DNA from: Streptomyces asiaticus
GTDB lineage: Bacteria; Actinomycetota; Actinomycetes; Streptomycetales; Streptomycetaceae
NCBI RefSeq assembly: GCF_018138715.1
Contig: NZ_JAGSHX010000003.1
Coordinates: forward strand, 1-64,000
DNA: 64,000 bases
Direction of reading: 5' to 3'
Under the pieces are notes generated by a model. The model made no database searches. It was not told the origin of the DNA and saw only the letters and a list, made by a program, of their open reading frames with translations. Position numbers and translations under genes: made by a program. This document shows positions 3,056 through 21,184 of the stretch, piece after piece (within the stretch, counting starts at the first letter, position 1; the number at the start of each line of letters is the position of its first letter).

Positions 3056-3147
3056 GTCCACGGTGGCCGGGTTGAGGGGGAACAGGCGGCCCGACGGCGG
3101 CGACGGGCGCAGCGTGGGGCCCAGGTGTGTGGTTCTGGAGCGGCATC

Positions 3148-5571
3148 TACGCCAGGGCGGCCGGGATGGCGTTTTCGGTTGTCCAGTCACCGTCGAAAAG
3201 GGCGGCGACCAGGCGTGCCTCGTCGTCGGGGAGCTGGCCGGCGCGGTGCTTGGTGCGGGCCTTGGCGAGCCAGGCGCCGATCCTGACCGTGTCGCCGTCA
3301 ACGCGGATCGTCTCGCGGGCGGCAGGGGCGCGGCCTTCGCGGTGGAGAAAGAGTTCCAGGAGCTGGACGGTCTGTGTGAAGGTGCGGCGGGTGCGGCGGG
3401 CGGGGGTGAGCGGGTTTGCTGTCGGGGGTCAGACCGAGGGAGGTCATCAGGTGCTGCTGGCCGGGGTGGAGGGTGTGCCAGGTGGTGAGCTGGCGGTGCA
3501 GCCAGGAGCCGATCTTCACGCTGCCGAGCTGGGTGTCGGGGGTGAGCGTGGCTGGGTCGGCGCCGTCGGCGAGATGGGTGCGCAGCAGGTGGTATTTGCG
3601 GTGCCAGTCCGCGCCGTGGGGCAGGCGCCAGTCGGGGGCGAGGGCGGTCAGGGCGTCGTCGCGGGCGGGGTCGAGCTGGTTCTTGGCGGCGAGGTGGCGT
3701 TGTTCGGCGAGCCAGGCGCCGACGGGGGTGGTGGCGGGGGCGGCGAGGTGGCCGTGGGTGCGGTGGTAGTCGGATGCGGCGGCGAGGCGGGAGCGCCAGG
3801 CGGCGTCGTGCTTGTCCCAGATCATGCCGAGCGCGTCGAGTTCGGCGATCCAGGCGGCTTCCAGGCGGCCGGCCCTCCGGGCGTCGCGCATGGTGGTGAT
3901 GAAGGTGCCCAGGGTGTAGCCGGTGGGGTCCACGTGGTCGGCGGGGACGTCGAGGTGACCATATTCGTCGTGGTAGGCCTGGGCGGCGGCTAGTCCGAGG
4001 CGGCGGGAGCGGGAGACGGCCGGGTCGCGGGGGTCGAAGGAGGCCAGGTCCATCGCTTGGGCGATGCGCTCGGGGTGGACGGTGAAGTCGAAGTGCCAGC
4101 GGCGTTCGATGACGTCGCTGGTCTCGCGTGGGAGGCGGTTGGCCTTGTCGGGGAGGCGTTCGAGGATGCGGTGGTCGTGGCTGGCCAGTGCGCAGGCGAT
4201 CGCCCAGACGGGTTCGTAGGCGGTGCCGAGGATGTTCTTGGCGTCGGCGCCGGGCGGGACGTAGACGGGGACGATGAGGCTGGCGGTCTTGCCGGAGACG
4301 TCCAGGCGCAGGGCGCGGCCGAGGGCCTGGACGCAGCGGATGACGCTGCGGGTGGGGTCGGCGAAGACGATGGCGTCCACGCTGGGGATGTCGACGCCTT
4401 CGGCGATGAGGCGGGAGTTGGCGAGGATCGCGCAGTCGGCGGCGGCGAAGGCGGCGAAGGTGTCGGCGCGCTGGGCGGGGGTGTGCTCGCCGTGGGCGAA
4501 GAACAGCTCGGGGGTGATGTCCGGGCACAGGCCGGGGTCGGTCCGGGCCAGTTGGCGCAAGGTGTGGGGGAGTTCGCGGGCGAAGCGGCGGGCGTCGGAG
4601 ACGAGGTTGAAGTAGACCAGCACCTTCTTCAGACGGTGTTCGGTCATGGCGCGCAGGACTGCGAGGTGCAGGGCGGTGGTGCGCAGCGCGGTGTCCTGAT
4701 CCTCGCCGGGCCGGGTTGTGCCGGGGGCGGGCAGGTTCAGGCGGCGGCGCAGGTCGGCGTCGGTGAGGGTGGGGATCACGATGCGGTAGTCCGCAGCCCG
4801 GCCGTCAGCGACTGCCTGCGCGAGCGGGTACTCGAAGACCTTCTTGCCGTACACGGCCTCGTTGTCCATGGAGTTGGCGAACGCGTCCGCCTCCGCGCCG
4901 CCGCGGTGGCGGCGGCGCGGGCGGGTGGTGTCGGCGGACTCGGCCAGCTCCGGCGCAGCGAAAATCCTCGGAGTGGCGGTCATGTAGAGGCGGCGGTCCG
5001 CGTGGATGCGCTTCGCGTCGTTGACGATGGCCCACTTCTTGTCCGCGCGGCCTGCGATCCGGTGCGCCTCGTCCATGACCGCGAGGTCGAACGGCGGGAC
5101 CGCGTACTTCGTGTTCTGGGTTTGTTCGATCTTGTTCAGGGAGTCGTAGGTGCAGATCACCGTCAGCGCCGGAATCTGGTCCTCGCCCTCCCCCACCGCC
5201 GACATCAGCCCGCCCAGTGCGTGCGGGTCAGTGGTCGACGTGACGCGCGCCCCGACCAGGTCGTCCCGGCCTCTGGCGTCCAGGGAGGAGACGATCACCA
5301 TGTGCTCGCCGTGGCCGTCCCGGCGCCAGGCCAGTGCCGTCTGTGCCGCCAGGTCCAGAGAGGGCACCACGAACAGCACCAGCCGCGCGCCGAGTGCGTC
5401 CGCCACCCGGATCGAGACCAGTGTCTTGCCGGTCCCCGTCGCCGACACGAACAGTCCCCGCGTCCCGGCGCGGCGCAGGTGCCGTACCAGCCGCTTGACG
5501 GCCTTGACCTGATCGGGGAAGAGCCGCGCCTTCTCGGGACGGCCGGGCCGCGGCAGTTCGACCACAGTCAT
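3148..5571 (-). CDS. DEAH-box helicase with helicase-associated repeats, frameshifted near C-terminus
   Basis: ATG at 5571 starts a superfamily 2 helicase. Walker A is ATGTGKT at residues 44-50, then VMDEAHR and TATPRI, and motif VI lies in SVIRCVQALGRALRLD. From about residue 500 come helicase-associated repeats with the W-x-Y/R pattern. The frame of the motor runs to a stop at 3298, but its last 40 residues are Pro/Arg-rich nonsense. Shifting one base at the AAA of 3415-3417 restores a sensible tail (LTPARRTRRTFTQTVQLLEL) ending at TAG 3148-3150. Either a real one-base insertion or a sequence error is possible. Helicases of this general type sit near Streptomyces chromosome ends (TtrA is the named example), but I cannot claim orthology. 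Confidence 0.75.
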
Positions 5572-5671
5572 GAAGCTCTTCCTCGATCGGTCCAAAGCGA
5601 GCGGCGGCCGGGCCGGAAGGGCGGCAAGGCCGCTGAAGAGAACACCTTCAATCCGGCACCCTACCACCAAC

Positions 5672-5720
5672 GTACGCGAATCGTACGCGCAATGTACGGA
5701 TTTCGTACGGGCTATGTACG
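5672..5720. promoter_or_regulatory. five GTACG units at exact 11-bp spacing
   Basis: GTACG occurs at 5672, 5683, 5694, 5705 and 5716, each 11 bp after the last, in alternating CGTACG and TGTACG contexts. The array lies in the 182-bp divergent gap between the helicase (start 5571) and tap (start 5754) and ends 34 bp before the tap start. One repeat per helical turn on one DNA face suggests cooperative binding, perhaps by the helix-turn-helix of Tap. Confidence 0.75.
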
Positions 5721-5753
5721 ATTCATGGGGTAGGGTGGGGGTGGAGGTGTTCC

Positions 5754-7997
5754 ATGTCCGAGCTGTTCGATGCGGTCGACGCGCTGGTCGCGTCCCGGTC
5801 CCCGCTGCCGCCGCCGGCCGAGCGCAAGCGCCTGCGCCAGACGCACGCGCTCACCCTGGACGAGGTGGCCGCCGCCCTTAACGTGCGGCGGGCGACGGTC
5901 AGCGGCTGGGAGTCGGGCAAGACCGAGCCGCGGCCGCCGCAGCGGGAGCCGTACGCGCGCCTGCTGCGGCAGCTCGCACAGCTCTACCCCGCCGCCGAGA
6001 GCACCGCCGCCCCGCAGAAGGACGCCCCGACACCGAAGACGTCCAGCGGCCCGGCGTCCACGGCGCGAACCAGGCCCGCGGCCGGGGCTGTTGAGGCCGC
6101 GGCCGCCCCCACGCCCGGCACCGCCCCATCCGCTGTGCCCGCCGCCGCTCACGCACCAGCCGCCGCGCCGCGTCCAGCGCGGGCCGCCCGGCCGCCGCAA
6201 GGATCACCCCGCCCGGGCGCGCCGAAGACCGCTGCGGCCCGCACGCCCGCGCCCGGCAGCCCGTACGCGCACGGTCCGCTGCTCGTCCTCGACGCCGACG
6301 CCGACCGGCAGGTGACCGGCTACGGCATCGGCGGCCTGATCCTGGACGTGCCCGCCAAGTCACTCCCCGCGCTGGTGGAGTGGACGCTGGCGGAGGCACG
6401 GCTGGGGGCGGAGAAGCTGCACGGCTCGGGAAAGGACGCCGACCCGCTGCTGGTGCTCACCAAGGCGGCGTGCGAGCGCTACAGCCTGCCCGCCGCGCTG
6501 TCGGAGTCCGAGCGGCTCGCCGGGCGGCTCCCGGAGGGGCACAAGGTCCTCAAGCAGCTCCAGCGCGCCGACTGGCAGCTGACCAAGCGGGGGCTGGGGC
6601 CGTGGGCGCGGATCTACCGCCCTGCCCAGGACGGCCGTCGGCAGTGCGTGCAGCTGTGCATCCCTTCCTGGCACGCCCTCGACGACCGCGCCTGGGGCCA
6701 CGCAGCTCAGCTCGAGCCCGCGGAGCTGGCCCGGGTGCTGGGCGTGTACGCGATGCGGGTGATGACGCCGGTCGGTTCCACGGCCGTGACAGGGCTGGAG
6801 CTGATGACCGCGCTCAACCCGCCGACCCGCGCGAGCGAGCCGGACGAGGAGGGCAGGCGGCATTCCGAGCACCGGTCCGGCTCGCTGGGCACGCAGCCGA
6901 TGGACCCGGCGCCGTGCGAGGCGACCGACGGACACCCCGTCCTGGCCGACCTGCCCCGGTTCCACGTGCGCGGCCCCGGCGAGAGGCTGTTCGAGGAGGC
7001 CTACGACTGGGCGCGGGATCTGACCGACGCCGAGTGCATGCAGCGCTACCTGGTCGGCATCGACGTGAACCTGGCGTTCGGTGCTGCCGCCAACGGCGCG
7101 GTCGTCGGCCTGGCATCGCCCCCCGCGCACACCGCCAGCCCGGTCTTCGACCCAGCGGTGCCCGGTTCCTGGCTGGTCGACCTCTCCCACGTCGACCTGT
7201 CCCGGGTGAAGGTCGGCAAGCAGTGGCACCAGCTCGACGGCGATCTGCTGCCCAGCCCCTTCACGCCGACCGGCGAACGCCCGGAGGGTCCGGCCTGGTA
7301 CGCCACCCCCACCGTGGCGTACGCCGTCGAGCTCGGTTACGACGTCGCCCCGCTTGAGGCATGGGTGCGCCCGGAGTGCGGCCGGTTCCTGGACGGCTGG
7401 TACAAGCGGCTGCGCAACGCCTACGTGGACACCATGGCGGACCTCGCCGTGGGCGAGAAGCTCGCCCCGCACCAGTTCCTGGAAGCGATGGACGGCTACA
7501 GGCAGCGGGATGCGGAGCTGGCCATCGTGGTGGACGCCATCAAGATGACCGTCAAGGGCAGCATCGGCAAGCTGCAGGAGAAGGCCCGCGGCGGCGGCTG
7601 GAAGCCAGGGCAGCCCTGGCCCGCCCTCGCCCGCCCCACCTGGCGCCCGGACATCCGCGCGACCGTCATCTCCCGGGCCCGGATCAACATGCACCGCAAG
7701 ATGCTCAACCTGGCGGCGGCCACCGGCCGCTACCCGGTCGCGGTCCTGTCGGACTGCGCCGTGTACGCCGCCAACGGGCCCAGCCCGCTGGACGTCCTGC
7801 CCTACGGAGCCGACGGCAAGACCGTGCCGGGCTCGTTCCGGCTGGGGGTCTCGCCCGGGATGGTCAAGCACGAGGGCACCCAGAGCGTCCTGTGGGGCGC
7901 GGACGTGCTCGAGCAGCTCGGCACCGACGGCAAGACCGCCAACCTCGCCCGCTACATCAAGACCGGCGAGGTCACCGCCAAGGACACCGGGGAATAA
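5754..7997 (+). CDS. tap: telomere-associated protein Tap
   Basis: The 747-residue product matches the Tap family in length, layout and linkage to tpg. An N-terminal helix-turn-helix lies at about residues 22-62 (TLDEVAAALNVRRATVSGWE). A long Ala/Pro linker spans about 80-165. The large conserved body (from PYAHGPLLVLDADADRQVTG) fills the rest. In Streptomyces, Tap binds the 3' overhang of replicating linear ends and recruits Tpg. ATG 5754 has GGAGG 7 bp upstream. The next gene follows after 14 bp, so tap and tpg are one operon. The phased repeats upstream point to self-regulation. Confidence 0.9.
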   Translation: MSELFDAVDALVASRSPLPPPAERKRLRQTHALTLDEVAAALNVRRATVSGWESGKTEPRPPQREPYARLLRQLAQLYPAAESTAAPQKDAPTPKTSSGPASTARTRPAAGAVEAAAAPTPGTAPSAVPAAAHAPAAAPRPARAARPPQGSPRPGAPKTAAARTPAPGSPYAHGPLLVLDADADRQVTGYGIGGLILDVPAKSLPALVEWTLAEARLGAEKLHGSGKDADPLLVLTKAACERYSLPAALSESERLAGRLPEGHKVLKQLQRADWQLTKRGLGPWARIYRPAQDGRRQCVQLCIPSWHALDDRAWGHAAQLEPAELARVLGVYAMRVMTPVGSTAVTGLELMTALNPPTRASEPDEEGRRHSEHRSGSLGTQPMDPAPCEATDGHPVLADLPRFHVRGPGERLFEEAYDWARDLTDAECMQRYLVGIDVNLAFGAAANGAVVGLASPPAHTASPVFDPAVPGSWLVDLSHVDLSRVKVGKQWHQLDGDLLPSPFTPTGERPEGPAWYATPTVAYAVELGYDVAPLEAWVRPECGRFLDGWYKRLRNAYVDTMADLAVGEKLAPHQFLEAMDGYRQRDAELAIVVDAIKMTVKGSIGKLQEKARGGGWKPGQPWPALARPTWRPDIRATVISRARINMHRKMLNLAAATGRYPVAVLSDCAVYAANGPSPLDVLPYGADGKTVPGSFRLGVSPGMVKHEGTQSVLWGADVLEQLGTDGKTANLARYIKTGEVTAKDTGE

Positions 7998-8011
7998 GAG
8001 GACACGGGTCG

Positions 8012-8569
8012 ATGGTCACGGTCGCAGAAGAACTCGACAAGGCGGTGCAGGGCGCGTTCACGCGTCCCGTTCCCAAGTCCGCCGGGGCGCGGATGCGGTA
8101 CCTGGTCAAGCAGCACCAGCGCAGCACCCGGCGCGTCGCCGAACTGCTCGGTATCAGTCAGCGCACCGTCGAGCGGTACGTGAAGAACCAGATCAAAACC
8201 CCCCGGCCGGAGCTCGCCGACCGCCTCGAACGCGAGGTCCGCGCCCGCTGGCAGCCGCAGATCAGGGCCAGGGCGAAGCAGGCCGCGGCCACCACGAACG
8301 GCATCATGATCGATGTCCAGGCCCGGTTCGGCTACACCGCCGCCCCCGGCAGCACCGACCAGGCCCGCGTGCGCCACCTCACCCTCGCCCTGCCGCCCCG
8401 CCACGCCGCCCGCCTCCTCGAAGCACAGGAAGCCGGTCTCGACGAGGATGACCTCCGTCAGGTCGCGGCCGAGGCACTGGGCGAGGTCTACTTCCGCGAC
8501 AACGGCCGCCGCGCCCACGGCCTCGAAGTCGAACTCAAAGACCTCGTCGCCCTCGAGTTCGAGCTGTAA
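8012..8569 (+). CDS. tpg: telomere terminal protein Tpg
   Basis: The 185-residue protein has the Tpg signature: FTRPVPKSAGARMRYLVKQ near the start, a helix-turn-helix at about 39-60 (TRRVAELLGISQRTVERYVK), then RWQPQIRARAKQAAATTNGI and the GYTAAPGST segment. Tpg becomes covalently attached to the 5' DNA ends and primes end patching. In S. coelicolor the linking residue is reported as Thr114 (recalled); here S114/T115 fall at that point, but I have not aligned them. The gene follows tap after 14 bp. Confidence 0.92.
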   Translation: MVTVAEELDKAVQGAFTRPVPKSAGARMRYLVKQHQRSTRRVAELLGISQRTVERYVKNQIKTPRPELADRLEREVRARWQPQIRARAKQAAATTNGIMIDVQARFGYTAAPGSTDQARVRHLTLALPPRHAARLLEAQEAGLDEDDLRQVAAEALGEVYFRDNGRRAHGLEVELKDLVALEFEL

Positions 8570-8610
8570 CCCGGTCAGAGGCGCCGGGAGTAGCAGGAGA
8601 CCAGGAACAG

Positions 8611-10014
8611 ATGCCGGGGAGAGCTGTGGCAGCAGGGGTGTTACGGACAGCGCCACTGGCCGGGGAGCTGACCTCGTCACTGATCAACCGGGCCGCAGCC
8701 CGCTACGGTCTGCCTGCCGCCGGTGTGCTGCGGCTGTGGACCTGCCGCAACTCCCCCGCCCGGATGGACGGCGGCGGCATGCGGGCCGACGCGGAGGTCG
8801 TCCTCAACGAGGCCGGGCGGGCTGTGCTCGCCGAGCTGTGCGGGGTGGAACCGGCGGTGCTGGCGCGGGCTCTGCCCGCCTTCACCGTGGACGACCCCAA
8901 GATCAGCAAGGGCCGGGAGGCCGGCCTGGCGCAGGGGCGCTGGCAGGCGGCGAGCGCGGTGGCGGGAGAAGCGGCGTTCGCCTGCCGGTCGTGCACCGCG
9001 CGGCGCACCGGGCAGGCGCTGCGGGCGGTGCGGTATGTGCCGCGCCGGCAGCGGGTGTGCGGGCGGCACGGGCGGTGGCTGCTGGACGCGGACGCCGACC
9101 AGCCGCTGGAACACCTCGACCTGCGCGGTGTCCCCGAGGTGGTGGCCGCACAGCGGCGGTGGACGGGCGTGGCGCGGCGTGCGGTGCGGGCCGCGGCGGA
9201 CCCCGGGGAGGTCTTCGCCCTAGCGCACGCGGTCGTGGCCCGGTGGTGGGAGGAAGCCCTGCACTGGCATCAGGAGGAGATCTGGCCGCAGCGCCTGCAC
9301 CGGGTAGCGGGCGGCAACGCGGGAACGGATCTTAAGCGGTGGCGGATCGTGGGCCGGGACGCGGTCGTCTTCCCGGAGGTGGTGGCCGTGGCCGACGCTC
9401 TGCTGGATCCGGCCATGGCCGAGCTGGTGTGGAGGGACAGCGGTGCCGGGCGGCCGCGGCCGCTGTCCGCTGACGGGGCGTTCTGCCGCCGGCTGGGCGA
9501 GCGGGTGGGACGCAACTGGCTGGGGCCGCTGTCGGCAGTGGACTACGGCGGGCCTCTACTCGCCTGGATGGGCGCTGTCATCCGCCGGCGGCGCGGTGAA
9601 GGCGGGCCGCCCGGGTGGAGGGACGATCCGTGGCGGCTGCGGCGCGAACAGCAGCCCGCCACCATGGCCGGAGGCTTGCGCGTCATGACCGCCGAGGCGC
9701 ATTCGGGTGGCTCGGCGACCCGGTGGCGGGCCGCCGTGTCCGCCGAACACCGTCTCCACATCACCCAGTTGGTCAAGGAGGCCGGCGAGCAGCTGGTGGA
9801 GCTGCGCGGCGTGCACAGCGGCACCACCGCCGAAGTGGCCCGCACCCTGCTGGAGCACCTCAGTGAAAGTGCCGCCCTGATCGAGAAGGCCCTTGTGCAC
9901 ACCGCCACCGCGGCCGTCACCGCCGGGGTGGCGCTGGAGGAGGTCGCCGGATGGGCCCGCCTGTCCGCCCACGAGCTGGCGGAGATCGTGGCCGTGGGCA
10001 AGGACCACGGCTGA
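8611..10014 (+). CDS. TniQ-like protein with zinc finger, adjacent to tpg
   Basis: The first residues (RTAPLAGELTSSLINRAAAR) are the start of a TniQ domain, the target-selection adaptor of Tn7/Tn5053-type transposons. A C-x2-C...C-x2-H zinc finger follows at about residues 125-155 (CRSC and CGRH). The remaining 300 residues are mainly helical and not recognised. It lies 41 bp after tpg in the same direction, so it is probably co-expressed with the telomere genes. Its size (467 aa) and tail differ from the second TniQ at 18074. A role in linking transposition to telomeres is inference. Confidence 0.7.
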   Translation: MPGRAVAAGVLRTAPLAGELTSSLINRAAARYGLPAAGVLRLWTCRNSPARMDGGGMRADAEVVLNEAGRAVLAELCGVEPAVLARALPAFTVDDPKISKGREAGLAQGRWQAASAVAGEAAFACRSCTARRTGQALRAVRYVPRRQRVCGRHGRWLLDADADQPLEHLDLRGVPEVVAAQRRWTGVARRAVRAAADPGEVFALAHAVVARWWEEALHWHQEEIWPQRLHRVAGGNAGTDLKRWRIVGRDAVVFPEVVAVADALLDPAMAELVWRDSGAGRPRPLSADGAFCRRLGERVGRNWLGPLSAVDYGGPLLAWMGAVIRRRRGEGGPPGWRDDPWRLRREQQPATMAGGLRVMTAEAHSGGSATRWRAAVSAEHRLHITQLVKEAGEQLVELRGVHSGTTAEVARTLLEHLSESAALIEKALVHTATAAVTAGVALEEVAGWARLSAHELAEIVAVGKDHG

Positions 10015-10210
10015 CGTGCTCGGCGGCAGGTGTGGCGGGCTCTGCCCACTGCACGGCGCAGCCCGGCCCGCAGGGGCTCGGGCTGTTTTTCGCCTCCCGG
10101 GCCCGGATGCGCGTACGGCGCCGTTTCGGGAAGACCGGCGGCGCCTGGCCACTACGCTGTTGCGGAGCCTCGGCAGGCGGCGGGGCGAGGACAGGCACCG
10201 AGGGAGCACG

Positions 10211-11437
10211 TTGAGCAGTCGACCGGGCCCGGCGTCAGCGGGGGCGGACCTTGCCCGGCTGGCGCTCACCTTCCACCACACTCACCAGCTGCTGGACCCT
10301 GCCGCGCAGGGGGTGCAGACCTGGGAGGTGCGCATCACCGTGGCCGACACGCAGGTGGGCAGCCTCACGGCCGTACGCGGCCTGTACTGGAAGTCCGACA
10401 ACCTGCGCGAGCGGATGGCCGACGAACAGTCCTTCCCGGCTCTGGTGGCCACCCAGCTCCTGGACGAGGAGGGCCGGTTCACCTACGAGTTCGAGGAGTT
10501 CATCGAGTCGGCCTCCAGCGTCCTCGTCGTCGACGGGCTGCAGCTGGAGGAGGCCTTCGCTGACCCGCTGATCGTCGCCGGGGTGGTGGCCGCCGTCATC
10601 GACCGGCTGACGGACAACTACTTCGCCGTGGTCCTGCCCGCCCAGAACGCCTGCCTGGGTGCGGGTTCCGCCCTGCTTGCCGAGGCCGGCGCGCTGCTGA
10701 GCGCCCAGGAGTTCTCCGACGAACTTCAGATCATCGACAACGCCCCGGCTGCTCCCGAAGAGGCCGCGCAGCGCGTGCGCAGCCGTCTGCTTTCCCTCGC
10801 CCGCCACGGCCAGCCGACGGCGTGGGACGAAGAAGACAGCGAGGGTGACGGCTGGGACGAGGACGGCGAGGAGGACGAGGAACTCACCGCGCGGACGGCT
10901 GCGGTGCTGCGGGTGGCGCTCGAGGAGCTGTCTGAGCAGATCTGGCTGGACATCGCCGCCGTGGGCGATGCGCCTCTTGGGCGCGGCGAGGGCCGTGTCC
11001 TTGGCTCGCTGCCGCCGATCACCTTTCACCAGGACCAGCAGTGGCGGCGGCAGATGGCCCGCTGTTTCGACGACCTGGCCGCCGACCTCGCCAAGAATGG
11101 CACCGTCCGCCCGGGCTGCACCGGCGAGGAGATGGCCCTGCACCTGGGCATCGACCGGGCCAGAGCGCTGACGCGGAACCGGCCGCGCCTGGTGGCGGAA
11201 GCAGTGGAGGGTCTGGGTGAGGACCGCCGCGACTTCGACTGGGACTGGTGCTCGACCGTCCTGTTCGAGGACCACGACGTACTGATGCTCTTCGACGCCT
11301 CCCTGGACGGGATCGAGGACAGCGGCAACGAGATCAACCAGGCCCTCGGACTCGCCAACCTGGCCGCCGCGGACTGGTTCGATCCCTTCCGCCCGGGCCA
11401 GGCCCGCGACCCCGACCGCGGCTTCCGCCATCCCTGA
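10211..11437 (+). CDS. unknown protein, 408 aa, acidic middle region
   Basis: TTG at 10211 with GAGGGAGC upstream is the likely start. Longer frames upstream read through low-quality sequence overlapping the previous gene. The protein has no recognised domain. Residues about 205-230 are a strongly acidic low-complexity stretch (EEDSEGDGWDEDGEEDEEL) and the C-terminus ends WFDPFRPGQARDPDRGFRHP. It lies between the TniQ-like gene and the tns operon, all rightward, so it may be part of the same element. It could be a scaffold or inhibitor, but nothing in the sequence decides this. Confidence 0.6.
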   Translation: MSSRPGPASAGADLARLALTFHHTHQLLDPAAQGVQTWEVRITVADTQVGSLTAVRGLYWKSDNLRERMADEQSFPALVATQLLDEEGRFTYEFEEFIESASSVLVVDGLQLEEAFADPLIVAGVVAAVIDRLTDNYFAVVLPAQNACLGAGSALLAEAGALLSAQEFSDELQIIDNAPAAPEEAAQRVRSRLLSLARHGQPTAWDEEDSEGDGWDEDGEEDEELTARTAAVLRVALEELSEQIWLDIAAVGDAPLGRGEGRVLGSLPPITFHQDQQWRRQMARCFDDLAADLAKNGTVRPGCTGEEMALHLGIDRARALTRNRPRLVAEAVEGLGEDRRDFDWDWCSTVLFEDHDVLMLFDASLDGIEDSGNEINQALGLANLAAADWFDPFRPGQARDPDRGFRHP

Positions 11438-11594
11438 CCCCGGCCGCCGCCGCCAGGCCCCGGGCCGCAGAGGGCCGGCAGGAAGGCCGCAGGCTGAGCC
11501 CTTCTCGCAAGTCCGGCTCTCCGGCTCGAGCCGGAGGGGGTTCAAGACGGCTACGCTCGGCTGCTGATGTGGCCGGGCGGGGGAGGTGGGGGCA

Positions 11595-11915
11595 GTGGCC
11601 AAACGCGATGTGTGGGTACGCGTCGGGGACGACCTGGTGCGCGGCGACACCATCGTGGGCGTCGCCGTGAGCGATCCGCCCTACGACTGGGAGACGTTCA
11701 AGATCATGCTGAAGGTCACGGGACACCGCGACCATCTGTGGCTCGACTCCGGTGTCTGCGACGACGGCCAGGGTGCTGGGCGCGAGCAGGTCAACGCGCT
11801 CGCGGATGCCTTCGTCGACACGCTCGCGCGCGGTGCGGCGATGCCGTCCGGCGCCTTGATCAGGTTCGGTTCCGGCGAGGACGACTCGGGATGGGTACTG
11901 TCGTCTCTGGGGTAG
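11595..11915 (+). CDS. small unknown protein, 106 aa
   Basis: GTG at 11595 has GGAGGTGGGGG just upstream. The compact protein (begins VAKRDVWVRVGDDLVRGDTI) looks like a beta-rich single domain. It ends with GSGEDDSGWVLSSLG. No homologous family comes to mind. It sits 157 bp after the previous unknown gene and 240 bp before the TnsA-like gene. Confidence 0.6.
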   Translation: MAKRDVWVRVGDDLVRGDTIVGVAVSDPPYDWETFKIMLKVTGHRDHLWLDSGVCDDGQGAGREQVNALADAFVDTLARGAAMPSGALIRFGSGEDDSGWVLSSLG

Positions 11916-12011
11916 CGGCGGAACCGGTCCGGGCGCCCGCCCACTCCTGCGGCCCGGGTGGACCCGCGCCACGGTCCGCCCGCCGCGACACGGCGGGCGA
12001 TTGGGTGGGAA

Positions 12012-12029
12012 AGTGCAGAGATCTGCACT
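12012..12029. promoter_or_regulatory. palindrome upstream of the tns operon
   Basis: AGTGCAG (12012-12018) and CTGCACT (12023-12029) are perfect inverted arms around AGAT. The site is in the 240-bp gap ahead of the TnsA-like gene, so it is a candidate operator or small hairpin in the operon leader. Confidence 0.45.
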
Positions 12030-12155
12030 GACACCGGGACGCCCCAGGCGGCATCCTGTCCCCCGCGCAAAGCAACCGGCCTGTGTGGAATGGCAGTTGC
12101 GGTTACCGGTCGGTTCGCCTGCGCGCCATGGCCGGTATGGCGTTGTGTGGAGTGC

Positions 12156-12977: not shown

Positions 12978-14956
12978 GCAGGAACGGTGCAACCGCCCCC
13001 GGTGGGCGGCATCTTGAGGTGGGCGCACAGGTCACGTTCGAAGACCGCACCTGGCAGGTGGCCGCCCTGGTCGGCGGCCGGGTGCACCTGGTTGCCGACG
13101 ACGGGGCCACCGCCTGCGTCGTGGCTGCCTATCTGGTGGCCGCGCCTGGCTTCTCGGTGATCGGCATGGCCGCCGTGGCGCCTCCTGCCCCGGCCCTGTG
13201 GGAAGCGGTGCCGCTGGCCGCTCAGGAGCGTGCCCTGGCCTGGCAGCGGCACATCCGCGAGGTCGAAACCGGACTGCCTGACGCCCCGGAAAAGTGCGGT
13301 GTGCCCCGGCCGGAGTACGACCCGCAGCGCTTCACGCTTGCCGAGCGGGAAGGGGCCAAGGCGCGTGAGCTCACGGCGCTGGGCTGGGCCCGGGTCAGCC
13401 GGACCACGGTGCAGCGGATGCGGCTGGTCTACCGGCGGCAGGGGCTGTGGGGGCTGGTCGACAAGCGCCACCTGCGCGCCCCGTCCACTACCGGGCGTAC
13501 TGACGAGCGGGTGGTGGCCGCTGTGCTGGAGGCCCTGCGCCGACGCCGCGGCCGCAGGAAGACCACCACCCGGCAGGTCATCGAGTTGGCTGAGCAGATC
13601 GTGGCGGACACCTACGGGCCGCACCGGGTGAAGCTGCCCGCCCGCTCGTCGCTGTACCGGCTGGTGAAAGCGCTGGCGGATCCGGCCGAGCCGCCGGGCA
13701 GTGCGGCGCGCACCGCCACCGGCCCGGCCCGTTGCGGTGGCCCGCCTGCTGTGTTGCGGCCCGCCGAGCGGGTCCACATCGCCACCGCCCGCCTGGGTCT
13801 TGAGGCGGTGGGCGAGGACGGGGGTGTGGTGGAGGTGGCGGTGACGGCCGCGCTGGACGGGGCGAGCGGCTGTGTGCTGGCCGCCGTGCTACACCCGTTA
13901 CAGGCCCAGCCGGTTCAGTTGTCGGTGCTGCTGGCCGAGATGGCCGTGCCCAGGCCGCTGCGCCCGGGCTGGCCGGCCCTGCTGGAGCAGGCCTATGCGG
14001 GCGGGCCGCCCGGGCGGCTGATGTCCCTGCCCGCACGGATCGAAGCCGCCGCGGCGCATCCGGCGGCCGTGCCCGAGACGCTCGTCGTCGACCGGTCCCC
14101 GGCCGCCGTCACCTCCGCTGTGCTGGCCGTGTGCGAGAGCCTGGGCGTCAGCCTGGAGACGGTGCCGCCCCGGGCGGCGGACGCCCGGGGCGGCGCGGCG
14201 CGCACGCTGGGGGTTCTCGCCGGACTGTTCGCACGGCACGCCGCCGCGGCCCGGCCGCCTGCCGCCGTAACAGAAGAGAACGAAGACACCGAAGAGGACG
14301 GGGCGTACTGGAGCCTCCTGCAGCTGCAGGACCTGCTGGACGAATGGATCACCGCCTGCTGGCACCACCGCCCCCAGGAGCAGCTGCGCCATCCGCTGCT
14401 GCCCCGGGCGTCACTGGCCCCGCAGGAGATGTGGGAGGTGCTGCTGGGCGCGGCCGGGAACGTGCCGCTGCCGCTGGGCGGACAGCACTACGGCGAACTG
14501 CTCCCGGCACGCCGGTGCGCGCTCACCGAATCGGGCATCCGGCTGGGCGGGCGCCGCTACGACGATGCGTGCCTGGACGAACACCGCGGCCGCGGCCAGC
14601 GGTGGGAGGTCCACCACCACCCCTACGATCTGCGGCAGGTCTTCATCCGGCTGCCCGACGGCCTGCTCCATGCGGTCCCGTGGACGCAGGGCGAGCACAC
14701 CCTGCGCCCGTTCGACGAGACGGTCCGGCGCCGAACCGGCAGCGTCCTCGCGCGCCGCGGCGCGGGCGCGCAGCCGGGCAGCGAGAGGGCCAGCTGTTTC
14801 GGTGAGGCAGGGCGCGTTGGAGACTTCATGGCTGTGCACGGGATCGTCGGTGACGTGGTGCACGATGCCGGGGGGGACGACGCCCGTGGCCAAGTGACCC
14901 CAAAGTCCAGCGGGTTCGGGGTGTATGACGCCGGGGCGGAGGCCGAGCAGTGGTGA
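12974..14956 (+). CDS. TnsB-like transposase paralog without catalytic triad
   Basis: This 660-residue protein is a close paralog of the next gene over its full length, with the same start domain (VTFEDRTWQVAAL), helix-turn-helix region, integrase-type core and C-terminal DNA-binding part. At the first catalytic Asp it has VHIATAR (Ala270), at the second Asp it keeps VVDRS (Asp373), and at the Glu it has GGAARTLG (Ala409), still 35 residues on. It therefore cannot do DDE chemistry as read. The last residues VYDAGAEAEQW resemble the tail of the active copy. Start GTG 12974 overlaps the TnsA-like stop (GTGA). Role: probably a DNA-binding or regulatory partner. Confidence 0.75.
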   Translation: MSRNGATAPGGRHLEVGAQVTFEDRTWQVAALVGGRVHLVADDGATACVVAAYLVAAPGFSVIGMAAVAPPAPALWEAVPLAAQERALAWQRHIREVETGLPDAPEKCGVPRPEYDPQRFTLAEREGAKARELTALGWARVSRTTVQRMRLVYRRQGLWGLVDKRHLRAPSTTGRTDERVVAAVLEALRRRRGRRKTTTRQVIELAEQIVADTYGPHRVKLPARSSLYRLVKALADPAEPPGSAARTATGPARCGGPPAVLRPAERVHIATARLGLEAVGEDGGVVEVAVTAALDGASGCVLAAVLHPLQAQPVQLSVLLAEMAVPRPLRPGWPALLEQAYAGGPPGRLMSLPARIEAAAAHPAAVPETLVVDRSPAAVTSAVLAVCESLGVSLETVPPRAADARGGAARTLGVLAGLFARHAAAARPPAAVTEENEDTEEDGAYWSLLQLQDLLDEWITACWHHRPQEQLRHPLLPRASLAPQEMWEVLLGAAGNVPLPLGGQHYGELLPARRCALTESGIRLGGRRYDDACLDEHRGRGQRWEVHHHPYDLRQVFIRLPDGLLHAVPWTQGEHTLRPFDETVRRRTGSVLARRGAGAQPGSERASCFGEAGRVGDFMAVHGIVGDVVHDAGGDDARGQVTPKSSGFGVYDAGAEAEQW

Positions 14957-17043
14957 GCACACCCGGCCGTACGGCACGGGCCGTGGCCGCCCCCGCAGTC
15001 CGGCAGGTGAAGCTGGGTGCGTATGTGACGTTCGAGGGCCGCGCCTGGCAGGTGACCGCCGTGGCCGGGGCGTCGGTGCGGCTGGTCGACGAGCACGGGC
15101 AGACCGCCTCGGTGCTCGCCTCGTTCCTGTTCGCCGACCCCACGTTCGCGGTAGTCGACTCCCCTACCGCCGGGGTACCGCCGTGGGGGCTGCTGGAGGC
15201 GGTGCCCGACCGTGAGCGGGAGCGGGCTCTGGCCTGGCAGCGGCACATCCGCGAGATCGAGACCGGGCTGCCCGGCGGCCCGGGCAGCGGCGGGATACCC
15301 CGGCCCGAATACGACCCTGAACGGCGGTCGATGGCCGAGCGGGAGCAGGCCAAGGCCGACGAACTCGCGGCGTTGGGCTGGCCGCGGGTCAGCCGCGCCA
15401 CCGTGCGCCGCATGCGCGCCCGCTACCACGCGGGCGGCCTCATGGGACTGGTCCCCCGCCGCAAACCGACCCGCGCGACGGGCCGGGCCGATGAGCGGGT
15501 GGTGGCCGCCGTGCTGGAGGCGCTGCGCCGCCAGCGCGGCCGCTCCAGGGGCACGCTGAAGGGGCTTAGGGAGCTGACCGGACAGATCCTGGCCGACACC
15601 CACGGGCCGGGCGCGGTGGCGCTGCCGACGCCGTCGACGTTCAACCGGCTGGCGCGGGTACTGGCCGACCCGCTGGAGCATCCCGGCCGCCCGGCCCGCA
15701 CCGCCACCACTACGCCGACGCGGCCCCTCAGGCCGACGGTGGCGCTGCGGCCGGGCGAGCTGGTCCAGGTCGACACCACCCGCCTGGACGTGATGGCTGT
15801 CGGCGAGGACGGCCGCCCGGTACGCCCGGAGCTGACCATCGCCCTGGATGTGGCCACGCGGTCGGTGGTGGCGGCCGTGCTGCGCGAGGAGAGCACGAGG
15901 GCCGTGGACGCGGCCCTGCTGCTCGCCGAGATGGCCGTGCCCCACCCCGCAAGGCCCGGCTGGCCCGGCCAGCTGCGCCTGGCCCACGCCGCCGTCCCCT
16001 ACACCCGGCTGCTGGCCCTGGACTCGCGGCTTGAGCAGGCGGCGGCACGCCCTGTGGTGGTGCCCGAGACGATCGTCATCGACCGCGGCAGGGTCTTCGT
16101 CTCCGCCGCGTTCCTGGCCGCCTGCGAAACCCTCGGGGTGAGCGTGCAGCCCGCCCCGCCGCGTTCCCCGGCCGCCAAGGGCGCCGTCGAGCGGACGTTC
16201 GGAAGTATCAACACGCTGTTCGCACAGCACGTCGCCGGCTACACCGGCTCCCACGTCCTGCAGCGCGGCGGGTCGGTGGAGGACGAAGCACGCTTCACCG
16301 TGGCCCAGTTGCAGGAGCTGCTGGACGAGTGGGTCACCGCGTGCTGGCAGCACCGCCCCCACGACGGGCTGCGCCACCCGGTCCTGCCGAAGAAGGCGCT
16401 GGCCCCGAACGAGATGTGGGGCGCGCTGCTGGGCGCGTCCGGGTACGTGCCGCTGCCGCTGACCGGCGCCGACTACCTGGAACTGCTGCCCGTGCGCTTC
16501 CACCCCGTCACCGGCCGCGGCATCCGCATCAACTACCGCACCTACGACCACGCCTGCCTGAATGAGCACCGCGGCCGCCCCTCCCCCACCGGGCCCGGCG
16601 GCAGGTGGGAGGTCCACCTCAACCCGCACGATGTGCGGCAGATCTACATCCGTCTGCCCGACGGCTGCCTGCACGAGGTCCCGTGGATCCACCGCGACCA
16701 CGTCCACGCCCCGATGGGCGAGACCGCCTGGCGCCACATCCGCGCAGCCGTCAACCGGCGCGCAGGCCGCGAGCGGCACGAAGCCGACCTGGCCGAAGCC
16801 GCCGACCAGGTCCTGCGCCATGCTCGCCCCCAGCCCGCTCCCGCCGCTCCCGTCGCAGCAGCAGCGGCGGGAGCGACGGGACCGCAGACGGCGGATGACC
16901 ACGCGCAGGCCCAGGACAGTCTCGACGCCATCGAAGCGCACGCCCCTGACGCTGACGGCAGGCCCGCCGACAGCGATGAACTCTCCTTGCCGACAGGCCG
17001 ATTCGCGCTGTACGACGCCTTCAAGGAGGCCGAACACTGGTGA
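14953..17043 (+). CDS. TnsB/TniA-type DDE transposase, catalytically intact
   Basis: About 696 residues. The integrase core has VQVDTTRLDVM (Asp274), IVIDRGRVFV (Asp377) and KGAVERTFGS (Glu413); the last two are separated by exactly 35 residues, the classic DD(35)E. N-terminal DNA-binding helices lie at about 100-200 and the Mu-type beta-barrel follows the core. The C-terminal tail RFALYDAFKEAEHW is where TnsB proteins contact the ATPase TnsC. It cuts and joins transposon ends. The start is GTG 14953 (or 14950), overlapping the previous stop; its own stop overlaps tnsC by 4 bp. Confidence 0.85.
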   Translation: MSTPGRTARAVAAPAVRQVKLGAYVTFEGRAWQVTAVAGASVRLVDEHGQTASVLASFLFADPTFAVVDSPTAGVPPWGLLEAVPDRERERALAWQRHIREIETGLPGGPGSGGIPRPEYDPERRSMAEREQAKADELAALGWPRVSRATVRRMRARYHAGGLMGLVPRRKPTRATGRADERVVAAVLEALRRQRGRSRGTLKGLRELTGQILADTHGPGAVALPTPSTFNRLARVLADPLEHPGRPARTATTTPTRPLRPTVALRPGELVQVDTTRLDVMAVGEDGRPVRPELTIALDVATRSVVAAVLREESTRAVDAALLLAEMAVPHPARPGWPGQLRLAHAAVPYTRLLALDSRLEQAAARPVVVPETIVIDRGRVFVSAAFLAACETLGVSVQPAPPRSPAAKGAVERTFGSINTLFAQHVAGYTGSHVLQRGGSVEDEARFTVAQLQELLDEWVTACWQHRPHDGLRHPVLPKKALAPNEMWGALLGASGYVPLPLTGADYLELLPVRFHPVTGRGIRINYRTYDHACLNEHRGRPSPTGPGGRWEVHLNPHDVRQIYIRLPDGCLHEVPWIHRDHVHAPMGETAWRHIRAAVNRRAGRERHEADLAEAADQVLRHARPQPAPAAPVAAAAAGATGPQTADDHAQAQDSLDAIEAHAPDADGRPADSDELSLPTGRFALYDAFKEAEHW

Positions 17044-18077
17044 CCAGCCCCGACACCACCACACCCGCCGCCGAACAGACATCCCCGGCAACGGTCACCA
17101 CCTTCGACGCCTTCGCCCACTTCGCCCACGCCGCCCCGCCCGCACCCCCGCAGCCGGGCCAGCCACCATGCTCGCTGGAGGAACGCCTGGCCTACCACTC
17201 CCAGTTCGTCACCGTGCGCACCCCCGCCATCGAGAACCTCTCGCGCAGCGTGCGCACCCTGATGATCCTCGGCCGCCACCAGCACGTCACCGCCCGCCCG
17301 TCCCTGATCGTCACCGGCCCGGCCACCACCGGCAAAACCACCGCCCTGCTCGAGGTCGGCCGGACCTGCCACCTGGCCCACACCCGCCGCGCCCACCCCC
17401 GCGACCACAGCGTGCCCGTCGCCTACGTACTGGTTCCGCCGGGCGCCACGGCCAAGACCCTGGCCGGCGAGTTCGCCCGCTACCTCGGCATCCCCGTCAC
17501 CACCCGCATGACCACCGCGCAGATCACGACCGCCGTCTGCCACACCTACACCGCGGCCGGGGTAAAGCTGGTGCTGATCGACGAGATCCACCGGCTCAAC
17601 CCCCGCACGTCCACCGGCGCGGAGGCGGCCGACTGGCTCAAGGACCTCACCGAACGCGTCGCCGCGACGTTCGTGTACGCGGGCATCGACGTCACCGCCA
17701 GCACGGTGTTCACCGGGGTGCGCGGGGCGCAGCTGGCCGGGCGGGCCTCTCTGATCGACTGCGGGGCGCTGCCCGCCCGCGCCGGCGGCCGTGAGCCCTT
17801 CCGCGAGCTGATCGCCGCTCTGGAACAGGCCCTCGACCTGCACGCACACCGGGCGGGCAGCCTGCCGAAACTGGCGCCGTACCTGCACGAGCGGACCGCC
17901 GGACGGATCGGCAGCCTGTCCCGCCTGCTCCGCCAGGCCGCGATCGAGGCCATCCTGGACGGCAGCGAGCGCATCACCAAACCGCTGCTGGACACCATCG
18001 CGCTGGACCACCTGGCCGAGGAGCACTACCGGCCCCGCGCCCCAGCGAGCCGCCGTACCCGGCCCAGCAGCCGGTGA
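17040..18077 (+). CDS. TnsC/TniB-type AAA+ ATPase
   Basis: The 345-residue protein has a Walker A at 93-101 (GPATTGKTT) and a Walker B at 177-182 (LVLIDEIHRL), the AAA+ layout of TniB and TnsC. After a 40-residue Pro/Ala leader comes the helical SLEERLAYHSQFVTVRTPAI segment usual in this family. These ATPases mark the target DNA and pass it to TnsB. The start GTG and stop both overlap the neighbours by 4 bp, so it is translated with tnsB and tniQ. Confidence 0.85.
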   Translation: MTSPDTTTPAAEQTSPATVTTFDAFAHFAHAAPPAPPQPGQPPCSLEERLAYHSQFVTVRTPAIENLSRSVRTLMILGRHQHVTARPSLIVTGPATTGKTTALLEVGRTCHLAHTRRAHPRDHSVPVAYVLVPPGATAKTLAGEFARYLGIPVTTRMTTAQITTAVCHTYTAAGVKLVLIDEIHRLNPRTSTGAEAADWLKDLTERVAATFVYAGIDVTASTVFTGVRGAQLAGRASLIDCGALPARAGGREPFRELIAALEQALDLHAHRAGSLPKLAPYLHERTAGRIGSLSRLLRQAAIEAILDGSERITKPLLDTIALDHLAEEHYRPRAPASRRTRPSSR

Positions 18078-18988
18078 CCGCCCACGCCCCGAGCAGCCCT
18101 GCGGTGCGAGCCCGCACGATGTGGCCGTCCCCGCCCGGCGCGCTGCGCGTACAGCCGCTGCCCCGCGAGTCAACAGCCTCATACCTCACCCGCCTCGCAG
18201 CCACCTATCAGCTGACCGTCGACCAGCTCCTCGACGGCCTGCACATCGCCGCCACCGGCACCTTTGCGGCCCCGCCCGCCACCGACATCCACCTCAGCGC
18301 CGAAGCCACCCGCCGCCTGTCCGCCTTCACCCGTATCCCGCCCGCACACCTCAACCGCGCACTGCCCCGCCAGCCCCCGCCCGCCAGTATCGGCATGGCC
18401 CACGCCGCCCTCGCCCGCTGGCAGCCCCTCCAGCCCGCGGTCCAGCCGCTGGCGGCGTGCACCGCCTGCACCGCGCACCGCAGCCCGCACAAGGCCGTCC
18501 CCGCGTGGATCCACCCGGCGCCCGACCTGCCCCGGGCCATCATCTGCACCCGCCACCAGCAGGCCTCCAGCGATCCCCGGCACCCCGCCCCCCTCAACAT
18601 CCACCCCCTCCCCGAGCTCACCCGAACCCGCCCAGGCGCCCGCCACCGTGCGACCACGGCCTCCCTGAGCTGGGCATCGACGATCACGACGCGCTGGTAC
18701 GACCACCATCAGCACCTGCACGCGCGTTGGCACACACGCCTGAACCGCCTCACCGATGCCAACCCCCACATCCCCCAAGGCCCGGCCTCCCCAGCTCTGA
18801 CCTGCCGGAACCTGATCACCTACCCCGAAACCCTCACCCTCGCCGCGGCCCTTGACCGCCTACCCCCGCACCCCCTGACACGCGCGCAGCAGACCGCCTT
18901 CCTCCACCACCTCGCGGGCCGCCTCCAACTGCCCCGCTTCGCACCCGCCGACCACGACCTGCTCTGGCAACGCCTGCACGCCCGCTGA
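18074..18988 (+). CDS. TniQ-family target-selection protein
   Basis: The 304-residue protein starts its domain with LRVQPLPRESTASYLTRLAA, the TniQ signature. A zinc site is suggested by CTACTAH at about 134-140 and ICTRHQ at about 157. The C-terminal half is Pro/His-rich and less conserved. TniQ recruits TnsC to a chosen target, directly or through a DNA-binding or RNA-guided partner. It is the last gene of the five-gene overlap chain that begins at 12156. Confidence 0.8.
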   Translation: MTAHAPSSPAVRARTMWPSPPGALRVQPLPRESTASYLTRLAATYQLTVDQLLDGLHIAATGTFAAPPATDIHLSAEATRRLSAFTRIPPAHLNRALPRQPPPASIGMAHAALARWQPLQPAVQPLAACTACTAHRSPHKAVPAWIHPAPDLPRAIICTRHQQASSDPRHPAPLNIHPLPELTRTRPGARHRATTASLSWASTITTRWYDHHQHLHARWHTRLNRLTDANPHIPQGPASPALTCRNLITYPETLTLAAALDRLPPHPLTRAQQTAFLHHLAGRLQLPRFAPADHDLLWQRLHAR

Positions 18989-19159
18989 ATCGCACGCTCC
19001 GTCGCCGCCCCGGCCCCAGCACAACGGCCAACGACTCCCGTACCTATAGGCGCGCCAACCACACTGCGCAAAGATCGGCACCACACTCAGCTGACTGCGC
19101 AACACAAACAGCCAGCTCAGCCCACGCACCACCGGTCGCCCACGCCCCGACGCCGCACA
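18989..19159. other. short gap after tniQ with two ACTGCGCAA copies
   Basis: This gap is less GC-rich than its surroundings. ACTGCGCAA occurs at 19063-19071 and 19094-19102, 31 bp apart. The copies could be transposase-end binding sites or chance. No terminator-like hairpin was recognised. Confidence 0.3.
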
Positions 19160-21184
19160 GTGCTCCCCGCCGGAACAGAAATACCGCCCAGTACAACTGA
19201 GCAACAGCAGGTCACAACAAAGATCAATAAGCAGGCTCAACAGCTACGCCACAAGGACCTGCTGGCGTACTCAAGAGCCCGCGATGATCTGCAGTTCTCC
19301 GATGTCTTGACCCTCGAGCGGCAGACACCCGAGAGCTTGGGGGTGGATGACCTGCTGACGCGGTGCCGGCAGGTCACGCCCGTGGGACTGAGCCGGATGT
19401 CCCTGACACCCCGTCCCGTGTGGGTGGGCACCAACGGTGTCGACGACTGGCTGCAGGAAGCCGGTGCGGCAGCCCGCGACCTGGGCCGCAACGTCTACGT
19501 CCTCTGCGAGCACAAGAGCGTCGCGGACGCCGCCCTGTTGTGGAACCTGCGGGCCCTGCACGGCTGGTCCCACATCGTGCCGATCGGCCTGCCGGTGTCG
19601 CGTACCCCGGCTGGGGAACTGGACATCGCCGAAGCGGAAGCAAGGATCGAAACCGTCGCTCGTCAGCCGTTCTGGGTGACCGGCGCCGCGCCCATGATGG
19701 TGCTCACCTCGACCACACTGCCGCACGAGGACCTTGAGGCTGTAGGGCGTCGTCTGCCCCACCGTCCGGTTTACGCCCTCAGCCCTTCCGATGTACTGGT
19801 CCCCACTCCCGCGCCCCTGGCCCGGAGTTCCAGCATGCCGCTGACCTTCGCCGCCGGCCGCGCGCTGGCGCCGACACTGACCGAGGACGACCGGGAGGTA
19901 CTGGCTCTGGTGAACACGGACCAGTCGGTCCGTGTCACGGTCGAGGTCGACCGGCAGCCGCTGCCTTCGTTGGTACCGCTACGCGGTGGGCGCTGGTCGG
20001 TGTACCCGGCGTACGGCGGGGGCGGCGCGATCGTCAGTGCGTCAGGGGCGGGCGTTGCCGAAGTGCAGTGGCCGCAGACGTGGACCCTGCTGGAGGCGGC
20101 CGCGCGTGAACACGGTCTGACGGTGCGAGAGTCCGTTCCCGGCCAGCATGCCGTCGCGCTGGCCGAACTCGCCGGCGGTGCGCACGGGGTTCGCTGGCTG
20201 GCTCATCGCGGCCTGCTCTCACTGCTGTACTCCACTGCGGCAAGCACATCCATGAGCTGGTTCAAGGCGCGGGCGGATCGTCTGGCCAGGGAAGTAGCCG
20301 CAGCTCAGGAAGATCCCGACGCCGCGATGGCGCAGTTCTCCGAACTGCTCGCGGACATCAACGTCAGCCATGATGCCGAGACCTCGGGCGCATTCGATCT
20401 CAGCTCCCTCAGCAAAGCGCTGGGCGGGAAACGCTCGGTCGCGGAAGCCTGGCTGCGGTGGGCACTGCAGCGGCGCCTCGTCCTGCGTGTCGTCCAGCTC
20501 ATCTGTGATCACTGCGGCTTCAAAGTCCTGCGCCCGGTGGAGCAGACCGGCAACGCCGGCTGTCCACGATGCGGCCGCACCATGGTGGACCCGTTCGCCC
20601 TGACGTCGCTGACGTTCCGTTACCGTCTGGCCGAGCCCCTGCGACGGTCCATCGACGACGATTCCGTCTACCATGCCTTGATCATGCGCTGGCTGATCGC
20701 GGCGTTGGCGAACCGGCCAGGCTTCCTGGTGGGCGCGCACCCCGGAGTCGAGTTCTACCGCGGGAAGCAGCAGATCGGCGAGGCCGACATCGTCCTGCTT
20801 CTGGCAGACGGCACCGTCATTCCCGCCGAGGTGAAACGGCACGGCCGCCAGCTGACCGAGGGCGAGGTGGGTAAGGTCCGCTCGATCGCCGACGCGCTGC
20901 AGTCACCCACCGTGCTTCTTGGGGCGGGAGACAGCAGCGACGACTGCCCTCAGGCCCTCGCGCATGACCGCGATGACGGCACCGCCCGCGTCATCACCAG
21001 CGAATACTGGCTCACCCCGATCCCCCGGCCCGCCATCGACGGCTCAGGCCTGCCCCGCTGGAACAGAGACAACAACCGTCCCCCCGGCACCCTGCACGAC
21101 CACGAAGAAGCCTTCTGCAGCTTCATCGAGGACGCCAGTGCCCGCGCCTTCGGCACACACGACCCCGTCCGCGACCTGTTCTGA
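19160..21184 (+). CDS. large protein with zinc ribbon and C-terminal PD-(D/E)XK nuclease motif
   Basis: GTG 19160 gives 674 residues. The first 440 are mostly helical and not recognised. A four-cysteine zinc ribbon follows: C449-x2-C452 and C468-x2-C471. The C-terminal part holds Glu531 (GVEFYRG), Asp543 (GEADIVLLL) and Glu557-x-Lys559 (IPAEVKRHG), the arrangement of PD-(D/E)XK nucleases such as restriction and Holliday-junction enzymes. It lies 171 bp after tniQ in the same direction. It might supply the DNA cleavage that the degenerate TnsA-like protein cannot, or be an unrelated defence cargo gene. The sequence does not settle this. Confidence 0.65.
   Translation: MLPAGTEIPPSTTEQQQVTTKINKQAQQLRHKDLLAYSRARDDLQFSDVLTLERQTPESLGVDDLLTRCRQVTPVGLSRMSLTPRPVWVGTNGVDDWLQEAGAAARDLGRNVYVLCEHKSVADAALLWNLRALHGWSHIVPIGLPVSRTPAGELDIAEAEARIETVARQPFWVTGAAPMMVLTSTTLPHEDLEAVGRRLPHRPVYALSPSDVLVPTPAPLARSSSMPLTFAAGRALAPTLTEDDREVLALVNTDQSVRVTVEVDRQPLPSLVPLRGGRWSVYPAYGGGGAIVSASGAGVAEVQWPQTWTLLEAAAREHGLTVRESVPGQHAVALAELAGGAHGVRWLAHRGLLSLLYSTAASTSMSWFKARADRLAREVAAAQEDPDAAMAQFSELLADINVSHDAETSGAFDLSSLSKALGGKRSVAEAWLRWALQRRLVLRVVQLICDHCGFKVLRPVEQTGNAGCPRCGRTMVDPFALTSLTFRYRLAEPLRRSIDDDSVYHALIMRWLIAALANRPGFLVGAHPGVEFYRGKQQIGEADIVLLLADGTVIPAEVKRHGRQLTEGEVGKVRSIADALQSPTVLLGAGDSSDDCPQALAHDRDDGTARVITSEYWLTPIPRPAIDGSGLPRWNRDNNRPPGTLHDHEEAFCSFIEDASARAFGTHDPVRDLF

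Follow-up and report, generated by a model that had tools for sequence, protein, structure and literature searches.

When TnsA activity is missing, Tn7 itself leaves its donor joined to the target, and cointegrates result. The same outcome is reported for Tn7-like systems without TnsA activity, in which, according to the part of the source available here, cointegrates made up >95% of the reads with the TnsA D90A mutant and >85% with ShCAST (PMC8188705). Telomeric transposons are a further published kind (Hsieh et al., Science 2025, 387, eadp1973; source available in part). Here we describe a block of telomere-maintenance and transposition genes in a 64,000-nucleotide stretch of Streptomyces asiaticus DNA (hereafter referred to as the window), which consists of bases 1–64000 of contig C3 (117,989 bp) in a genome of 11.88 Mb and six contigs (G000); window base 1 is contig base 1. 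The block is probably (about 0.8) a Tn7-like telomeric transposon of Streptomyces, with a single TnsB-type end at 19253 as its inner boundary and a telomere beyond the contig edge as its outer boundary. Near-identical copies of it sit at the ends of two contigs, C1 and C3, next to different flanks. Relatives whose TnsA is in the same state are found at the ends of contigs or records, where they point inward, and some of these ends bear telomere hairpins.

Profile matches located the whole Tn7-type core, TnsA, TnsB, TnsC and TniQ, within the block. They also confirmed the gene order given in the original prediction, which had listed a divergent helicase, tap, tpg, a TniQ-like gene, a TnsA-like gene, two TnsB genes, TnsC and TniQ; one of the two unknown genes that it had placed among them was found, at about 10208–11437. 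Cas families were absent from the Pfam and NCBIfam matches of the proteins scanned, no scan aimed at Cas having been made. The features are as follows.

1–1309, no strand: outer part of C3, beyond the last base of the C1 copy; an open frame runs off contig base 1, and telomere hairpins are absent
1310–19253, no strand: stretch shared with the right end of C1 (inverted there), 99.8–100% identity, reaching from the final base of C1 to the TnsB-side end
3298–5670, minus: divergent DEAD/ResIII helicase with HA domains (HA 104.6 bits, ResIII 81.4 bits)
5754–7997, plus: tap, telomere-associated protein (NCBIfam telomere_Tap NF047542, 1069 bits, cut-off 600)
8015–8569, plus: tpg, terminal protein (telomere_Tpg NF047541, 284 bits, cut-off 90)
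8611–10014, plus: tniQ1, weakly TniQ-like (22.7 bits, under the Pfam cut-off of 27); its relatives also sit upstream of tnsA
about 10208–11437, plus: unknown gene without a Pfam match; homologues in five of seven tap-tpg-bearing relatives (L039, L044, L046/L060, L050, L089)
12297–12977, plus: TnsA-like domain with G and Q replacing the catalytic E and D, within ORF 11958–12977 (TnsA_like_Actin, 271 bits)
13127–14956 (alternative start 12869), plus: tnsB2, full-length TnsB paralogue without the DDE triad (A-D-A)
14950–17043, plus: tnsB1, TnsB with DDE
17040–18077, plus: tnsC (TniB/AAA)
18074–18988, plus: tniQ2 (35.9 bits, cut-off 27)
18989–19253, plus: TnsB-side transposon end with ACTGnGCAA-type boxes, which are putative TnsB sites, and the terminus ...GCTACGCCACA; same border in relatives
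19254–21184, plus: target gene truncated at its 5′ side by the insertion, outside the element

The inner border was defined by two copies in the same genome. The right end of C1 (1,320,035 bp) repeats window 1310–19254 in inverted orientation, and the alignment starts at the last C1 base. The copies differ by 2 substitutions and 28 indel columns, all within 1410–9218, with no difference in 9219–19253. Both end at a ...CGCCACA border at 19253, the terminal ACA being 19251–19253, after which the flanks are unrelated apart from base 19254 (A), also common to C1. We compared the region just downstream of tniQ2 in 17 sequences (C3, C1 and 15 loci, of which L046 and L060 are separate copies on the same record). 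In 14 of them we found a common stretch of about 260 bp with GCTACGCCACA, or nearly the same sequence, at its terminus; beyond it, 13 continue into flanks that differ from one another, and the L050 contig stops at the border. One specific TnsB-type end with unrelated flanks, as a telomeric transposon should have, is thus present.

The sequence beyond the border is open from 19256 for 642 aa. Its homologues are 718–820 aa long (14 among the matches listed); the best nine, when aligned, have 131–161 residues before the first flank residue, the figure being 158 for P0121, the nearest of them (800 aa, 96% identical). On the circular plasmid NZ_CP107767, the match to the C3 flank starts 396 bp inside a 2310-bp gene. 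Because the homologues are longer and the plasmid match starts within a gene, the border at 19253 lies within a foreign gene that has lost its 5′ part. ORF 19160–21184, which the original prediction had counted into the unit as a ‘nuclease-motif protein’, was accordingly rejected as a transposition gene: without about 158 N-terminal codons of its homologues, it is the insertion target, and it has no Pfam match over the cut-off, its PD-(D/E)xK-like motif having been seen by eye only. The predicted right limit of 21184 gives way to 19253, whereas on the left the unit is longer than had been proposed, since the common sequence passes the helicase to at least 1310. A candidate empty site in G134 was discarded because the flank gene present there has undergone rearrangement.

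The flanks of C1, L039, L042 and L045 are coding and, like the helicase genes near such ends, have HA domains (Pfam HA). Pfam was run on five of the 14 distinct flanks, the window included, and four of the five had HA, which gives no rate, as they were chosen for their HA-like look. HA helicase-like genes lie at most about 4 kb from the end in L090–L092, G131, G071, G118 and G005, and the L048 flank is another tap-tpg pair (55% and 42% identical). As a separate observation, in a related clade (L057, L058, L059, L062–L065, L069–L071, L076, L079, L080, L085 and L090) a TniQ gene is followed at a near-constant short distance by a conserved HA-type coding sequence; the two are perhaps a TniQ-HA target selector.

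The position of the element relative to replicon ends was correlated with the state of its TnsA. In the window, TnsA keeps its fold and has G and Q at the columns of the catalytic E and D (GQ, as opposed to ED where these are retained), and so departs from canonical Tn7. We tabulated 50 TnsB loci on contigs of known size, picked from the search matches with long contigs preferred; among the matches that the table omits are G010, G019, weaker ones in G007 and G012 (long contigs), and those on contigs <300 kb such as in G022, G046 and G039. Six rows were dropped, L123, L107 and L035 on contigs <300 kb and L166, L193 and L197 without a readable TnsA, leaving 44. All 12 loci with GQ TnsA (7 genomes; contigs of at least 300 kb) lay no more than 60 kb from a contig end, and their tnsB pointed inward, whereas 26 of the 27 loci with ED TnsA (18 genomes) were internal. 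Other TnsA states accounted for four loci near an end (three GH, one RQ) and one internal locus (SCP, 142 kb from the end). Fisher's test of GQ versus ED gave 3e-9, a value from non-independent rows (both ends of one replicon, related elements) and a 60-kb limit set after viewing the data. Another four GQ loci (L090–L093) were found close to the ends of plasmids whose records give them as linear. A single branch of the TnsB tree, with a support of 100, has the eight ED rows on one side; the tree was built quickly, has long branches and lacks an outgroup root. As this one branch splits off the ED rows, a single ancestral loss of E and D from TnsA is the simplest reading.

The operon also pairs an intact TnsB (tnsB1, DDE) with a conserved paralogue without the DDE triad (tnsB2). 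The dN/dS values were about 0.4–0.7 for tnsB2 (12 sequences) and 0.2–0.4 for tnsB1 (10 sequences). Plain decay of tnsB2 is unlikely, given these values and the kept fold (a predicted structure with a mean pLDDT of only 66).

Copies of the whole block were found in other records, as the original prediction had suggested looking for, and this recurrence shows that the arrangement from the helicase to tniQ2 is not due to chance. The linear plasmid pNL15-2K-Lin (NZ_CP130631, 38,342 bp; L089) has the helicase, tap, tpg, tniQ1, the unknown gene, tnsA, tnsB2, tnsB1, tnsC and tniQ2 in the same order. Its tap-side end has packed telomere hairpins, and its TnsB end is at locus position 29664, flanked by a fragment of another tnsA (L089:29665–30527 holds fragments of another tnsA-tnsB set). 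In Streptomyces nigrescens SNP1 (NZ_AP026074), two copies form an inverted repeat, 924793–950788 and 978604–952609 (99.98%), whose outer limits are exactly two TnsB ends. The centre of this repeat (L096 about 13400–13700; 951.4–951.7 kb) matches the terminal 370 bases of pNL15-2K-Lin, the best piece being 151 bp at 79% (E 7e-26); it may be a real fusion or an assembly join. Elsewhere in this record, at its left end, L098 2491–9820 is a long imperfect inverted repeat (71%).

Two contigs of S. blattellae (G022), which lack a tap-tpg match, share their outermost 32,815 bases without a difference as far as the TnsB end, and have different flanks after it. In G140, a small element of ~6.6 kb, running from hairpins to ...CAGCGACA, is present at three contig ends; the left ends of its C1 and C2 diverge exactly after ACA, and the two C2 ends share about 9 kb. 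Among 14 ends of relatives, seven (two in G131, three in G140, two in G118) have 5–8 hairpins in the first 300 bases, against control means of 0.15–0.75. A telomere as the outer boundary is clear in G140 and G118, and SNP1 shows homologous DNA. The proposal of a ‘transposon that carries or targets a telomere’ is therefore supported, by a TnsB-type end with unrelated flanks and, in several relatives, by another side that runs to a telomere-like replicon end. Of the two boundaries it called for, the TnsB-type end was found in the window at 19253, whereas the contig did not extend to a telomere of the window copy.

The surroundings of the two copies in S. asiaticus are consistent with terminal positions. 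tnsB1 is 13.6 kb from the right end of C1 and 15 kb from the left end of C3, with the tns genes pointing inward, and we infer that both are ends of replicons. By eye, C1, C3 and C6 seem to break off inside genes at their other ends. That C1 and C6 sum to 11,442,727 bp, and that an identical TnsB2 sits on an 11,439,647-bp contig, suggests that C1 is a chromosome arm. Six of seven plasmid relatives listed for a gene at about 80–740 sit 4–21 kb from a record end (three from one species), and the remaining one is 70 kb away (among the matches listed; there are at least 3 more records). The tap copy in C1 (L007) was considered as a pseudogene and rejected: its frameshifts are indels, nearly all of them bases missing in C1, and because these are restricted to the outer 8 kb of the copy, assembly error is likelier than decay. 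Contig C2 starts inside another tap gene (L008, G000:C2:1–1869), and may be a broken linear replicon.

The tap-tpg pair, by comparison, varied among relatives. It lies upstream of tniQ1 in L039, L042, L044, L046/L060, L050, L053 and L089, the loci closest to the window. It was not found within the fetched stretch of L038, L040, L041, L047, L048 and L092, of which L038 and L041 reach only 2.6 kb upstream, nor up to the contig end, 12.8 kb upstream, in G022 (L049/L061). The original prediction would have been abandoned had tap-tpg and the tns operon occurred independently in relatives, with unrelated borders between tpg and 12156; related tns operons without tap-tpg do exist (G022, L092, G140, G118), yet all of them still adjoin contig or record ends. 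The pair therefore seems to be dispensable cargo, and the association of the block with replicon ends remains. In G005 (G005:C1:1–20000; L122), a clade II element without tap-tpg lies outside a tap-tpg pair further in, perhaps a new end atop an older one.

These features suggest a likely scheme of movement. TnsB1 with TnsC and TniQ, perhaps also TnsB2, would nick only the 3′ strand at the single end, and TnsB1 would join this 3′ end to a target, in many cases close to another replicon end. As the TnsA cut would be absent, the donor would remain attached and its end would be copied, not excised. The 3′-OH of the target could then prime replication through the element out to the telomere, with Tap and Tpg completing the new end. 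The invaded molecule would lose its distal piece and gain a copy of the element with its telomere, and the donor would keep its own end. We tentatively propose, at somewhat short of even odds, that a Tn7-like lineage became chromosome ends and gave up 5′-strand cleavage, TnsA becoming a dead scaffold and one clade adding a dead TnsB partner, and that it spread by one-ended copy-out, replacing the ends of other replicons with the donor end intact.

Several observations weigh against the telomeric-transposon reading or this scheme. Neither a transposition event nor a one-ended product was observed, and two-ended joining explains the borders equally well; the sole sign of movement is near-identical copies with different flanks. 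One ED locus is 41 kb from a contig end, within the 60-kb limit. TnsB2 is missing from clades II and III, and is thus not needed for life at a replicon end in general. Three of the 17 end regions (L038, L040, L041) have no conserved end directly after tniQ2. Telomere-type hairpins were not found in window 1–6000 (0–1 per 300 bases), so that C3 would stop before its telomere. Seven of the 14 relatives' ends (two each in G090, G071 and G106, one in G005) have only 0–2 hairpins, as the controls do; these contigs may stop short or bear other telomere types. The SNP1 centre, with 2 hairpins against a control mean of 1.1 (max 4), is not richer than its surroundings; as the hairpin count failed to prove a telomere there, its homology to the pNL15-2K-Lin end was used instead. 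In pNL15-2K-Lin, a stretch of 34 bp (9075–9108) that finishes in CACA is similar to the TnsB terminus and has the same orientation (85%, E 0.03), and because of this look-alike the outermost 9 kb with the telomere may be a second element layered on the first.

The strongest competitor, which we rate somewhat short of even odds, retains the same element but has it moved by two TnsB ends, bridged through the telomeres of one linear replicon or of a fused dimer such as SNP1, and joined together to one target. Two-ended movement bridged through telomeres is reportedly what the abstract of Hsieh et al. describes. SNP1, with its two outward TnsB ends around a telomere-like centre, would suit such an event, as would the presence of the element at both contig ends in G131, G090, G071, G106 and G140 C2. 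In the C1/C3, SNP1 and G022 pairs, however, the five bases after the end are not reverse complements (by eye), and these pairs are thus not two halves of one target site; each copy could still stem from a separate two-ended event with the small piece lost. An ordinary two-ended Tn7-like transposon with its left end past the contig edge would profit from the window stopping short of the outer boundary. It is very improbable: the TnsA has no catalytic residues, and an inverted second TnsB end was not found in window 1–22000, in pNL15-2K-Lin or in the part of the SNP1 repeat that was fetched, its right half.

Two further explanations dispense with a telomeric transposon. It is very improbable that a resident tap-tpg telomere merely adjoins an unrelated Tn7-like element, the modules moving independently. 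Relatives of the tns operon without tap-tpg would be expected from this, but in pNL15-2K-Lin and SNP1 the genes from the helicase to tniQ2 are all present in the same order, several contigs hold almost the complete block, the stretch common to C1 and C3 spans both modules, and no TnsB end other than that at 19253 was found in window 1–22000. Streptomyces ends homogenise, and ordinary terminal inverted repeats equalised by recombination, without transposition, could account for the G131 ends, which share the whole 33 kb compared, past tnsC, for the 9 kb of the G140 C2 ends, which extends past the TnsB end, and for G071 and G090, where identity stops at sites unlike the TnsB end. We consider this account just as doubtful overall: in C1/C3, SNP1, G022 and G140 C1/C2, identity stops at the transposon end, which recombination alone does not favour, and in G106 it stops two bases after an ACA. 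Apart from the block, contig C4 holds a second copy, 99.7% identical, of the 1.48 kb at window 40376–41856, which may be a mobile element.

Because a linear replicon depends on its ends, an element that itself forms the end could ill afford to be excised, and the loss of the TnsA active site that matches the end location offers a testable reason for spread without killing the donor. Such spread would help explain the replacement of Streptomyces ends, and also why some terminal repeats break off where a transposon ends. The telomeric transposons already described reportedly include Streptomyces members and telomere-maintenance genes. We found neither the link between TnsA loss and replicon ends nor the pair of DDE and dead TnsB proteins in the literature searched, which excludes Hsieh et al. 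2025, where they may already be given; a readable literature account of this clade was not found.

Among the known relatives, the pNL15-2K-Lin and SNP1 copies have the whole block in the same order, with proteins about 61–90% identical, a related end sequence and homologous telomere-like DNA on the tap side; they differ in their flanks and outer DNA, and pNL15-2K-Lin has the possible extra end remnant at 9075–9108. Two internal elements of the same genome, C6:4998162–5000057 and C6:6116390–6118285 (L036, L037), share the TnsA-TnsB order, TnsA_like_Actin and about 49% TnsB identity, whereas their TnsA keeps E and D, they are inside a 10.1-Mb contig, and no second TnsB match lies alongside. These two tnsA-tnsB sets have equal scores and are about 1.1 Mb apart in opposite orientation. 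Compared with Tn7 (TnsABC, TnsD/TniQ), the S. asiaticus element differs in that no second end was found, the catalytic TnsA residues are missing, TnsB is present as a tandem pair, and tap-tpg is aboard. With telomeric transposons, as far as the part of Hsieh et al. (2025) available here describes them, it has in common a Tn7-like core, one transposon end and, probably, a telomere as the other boundary and residence on linear replicons.

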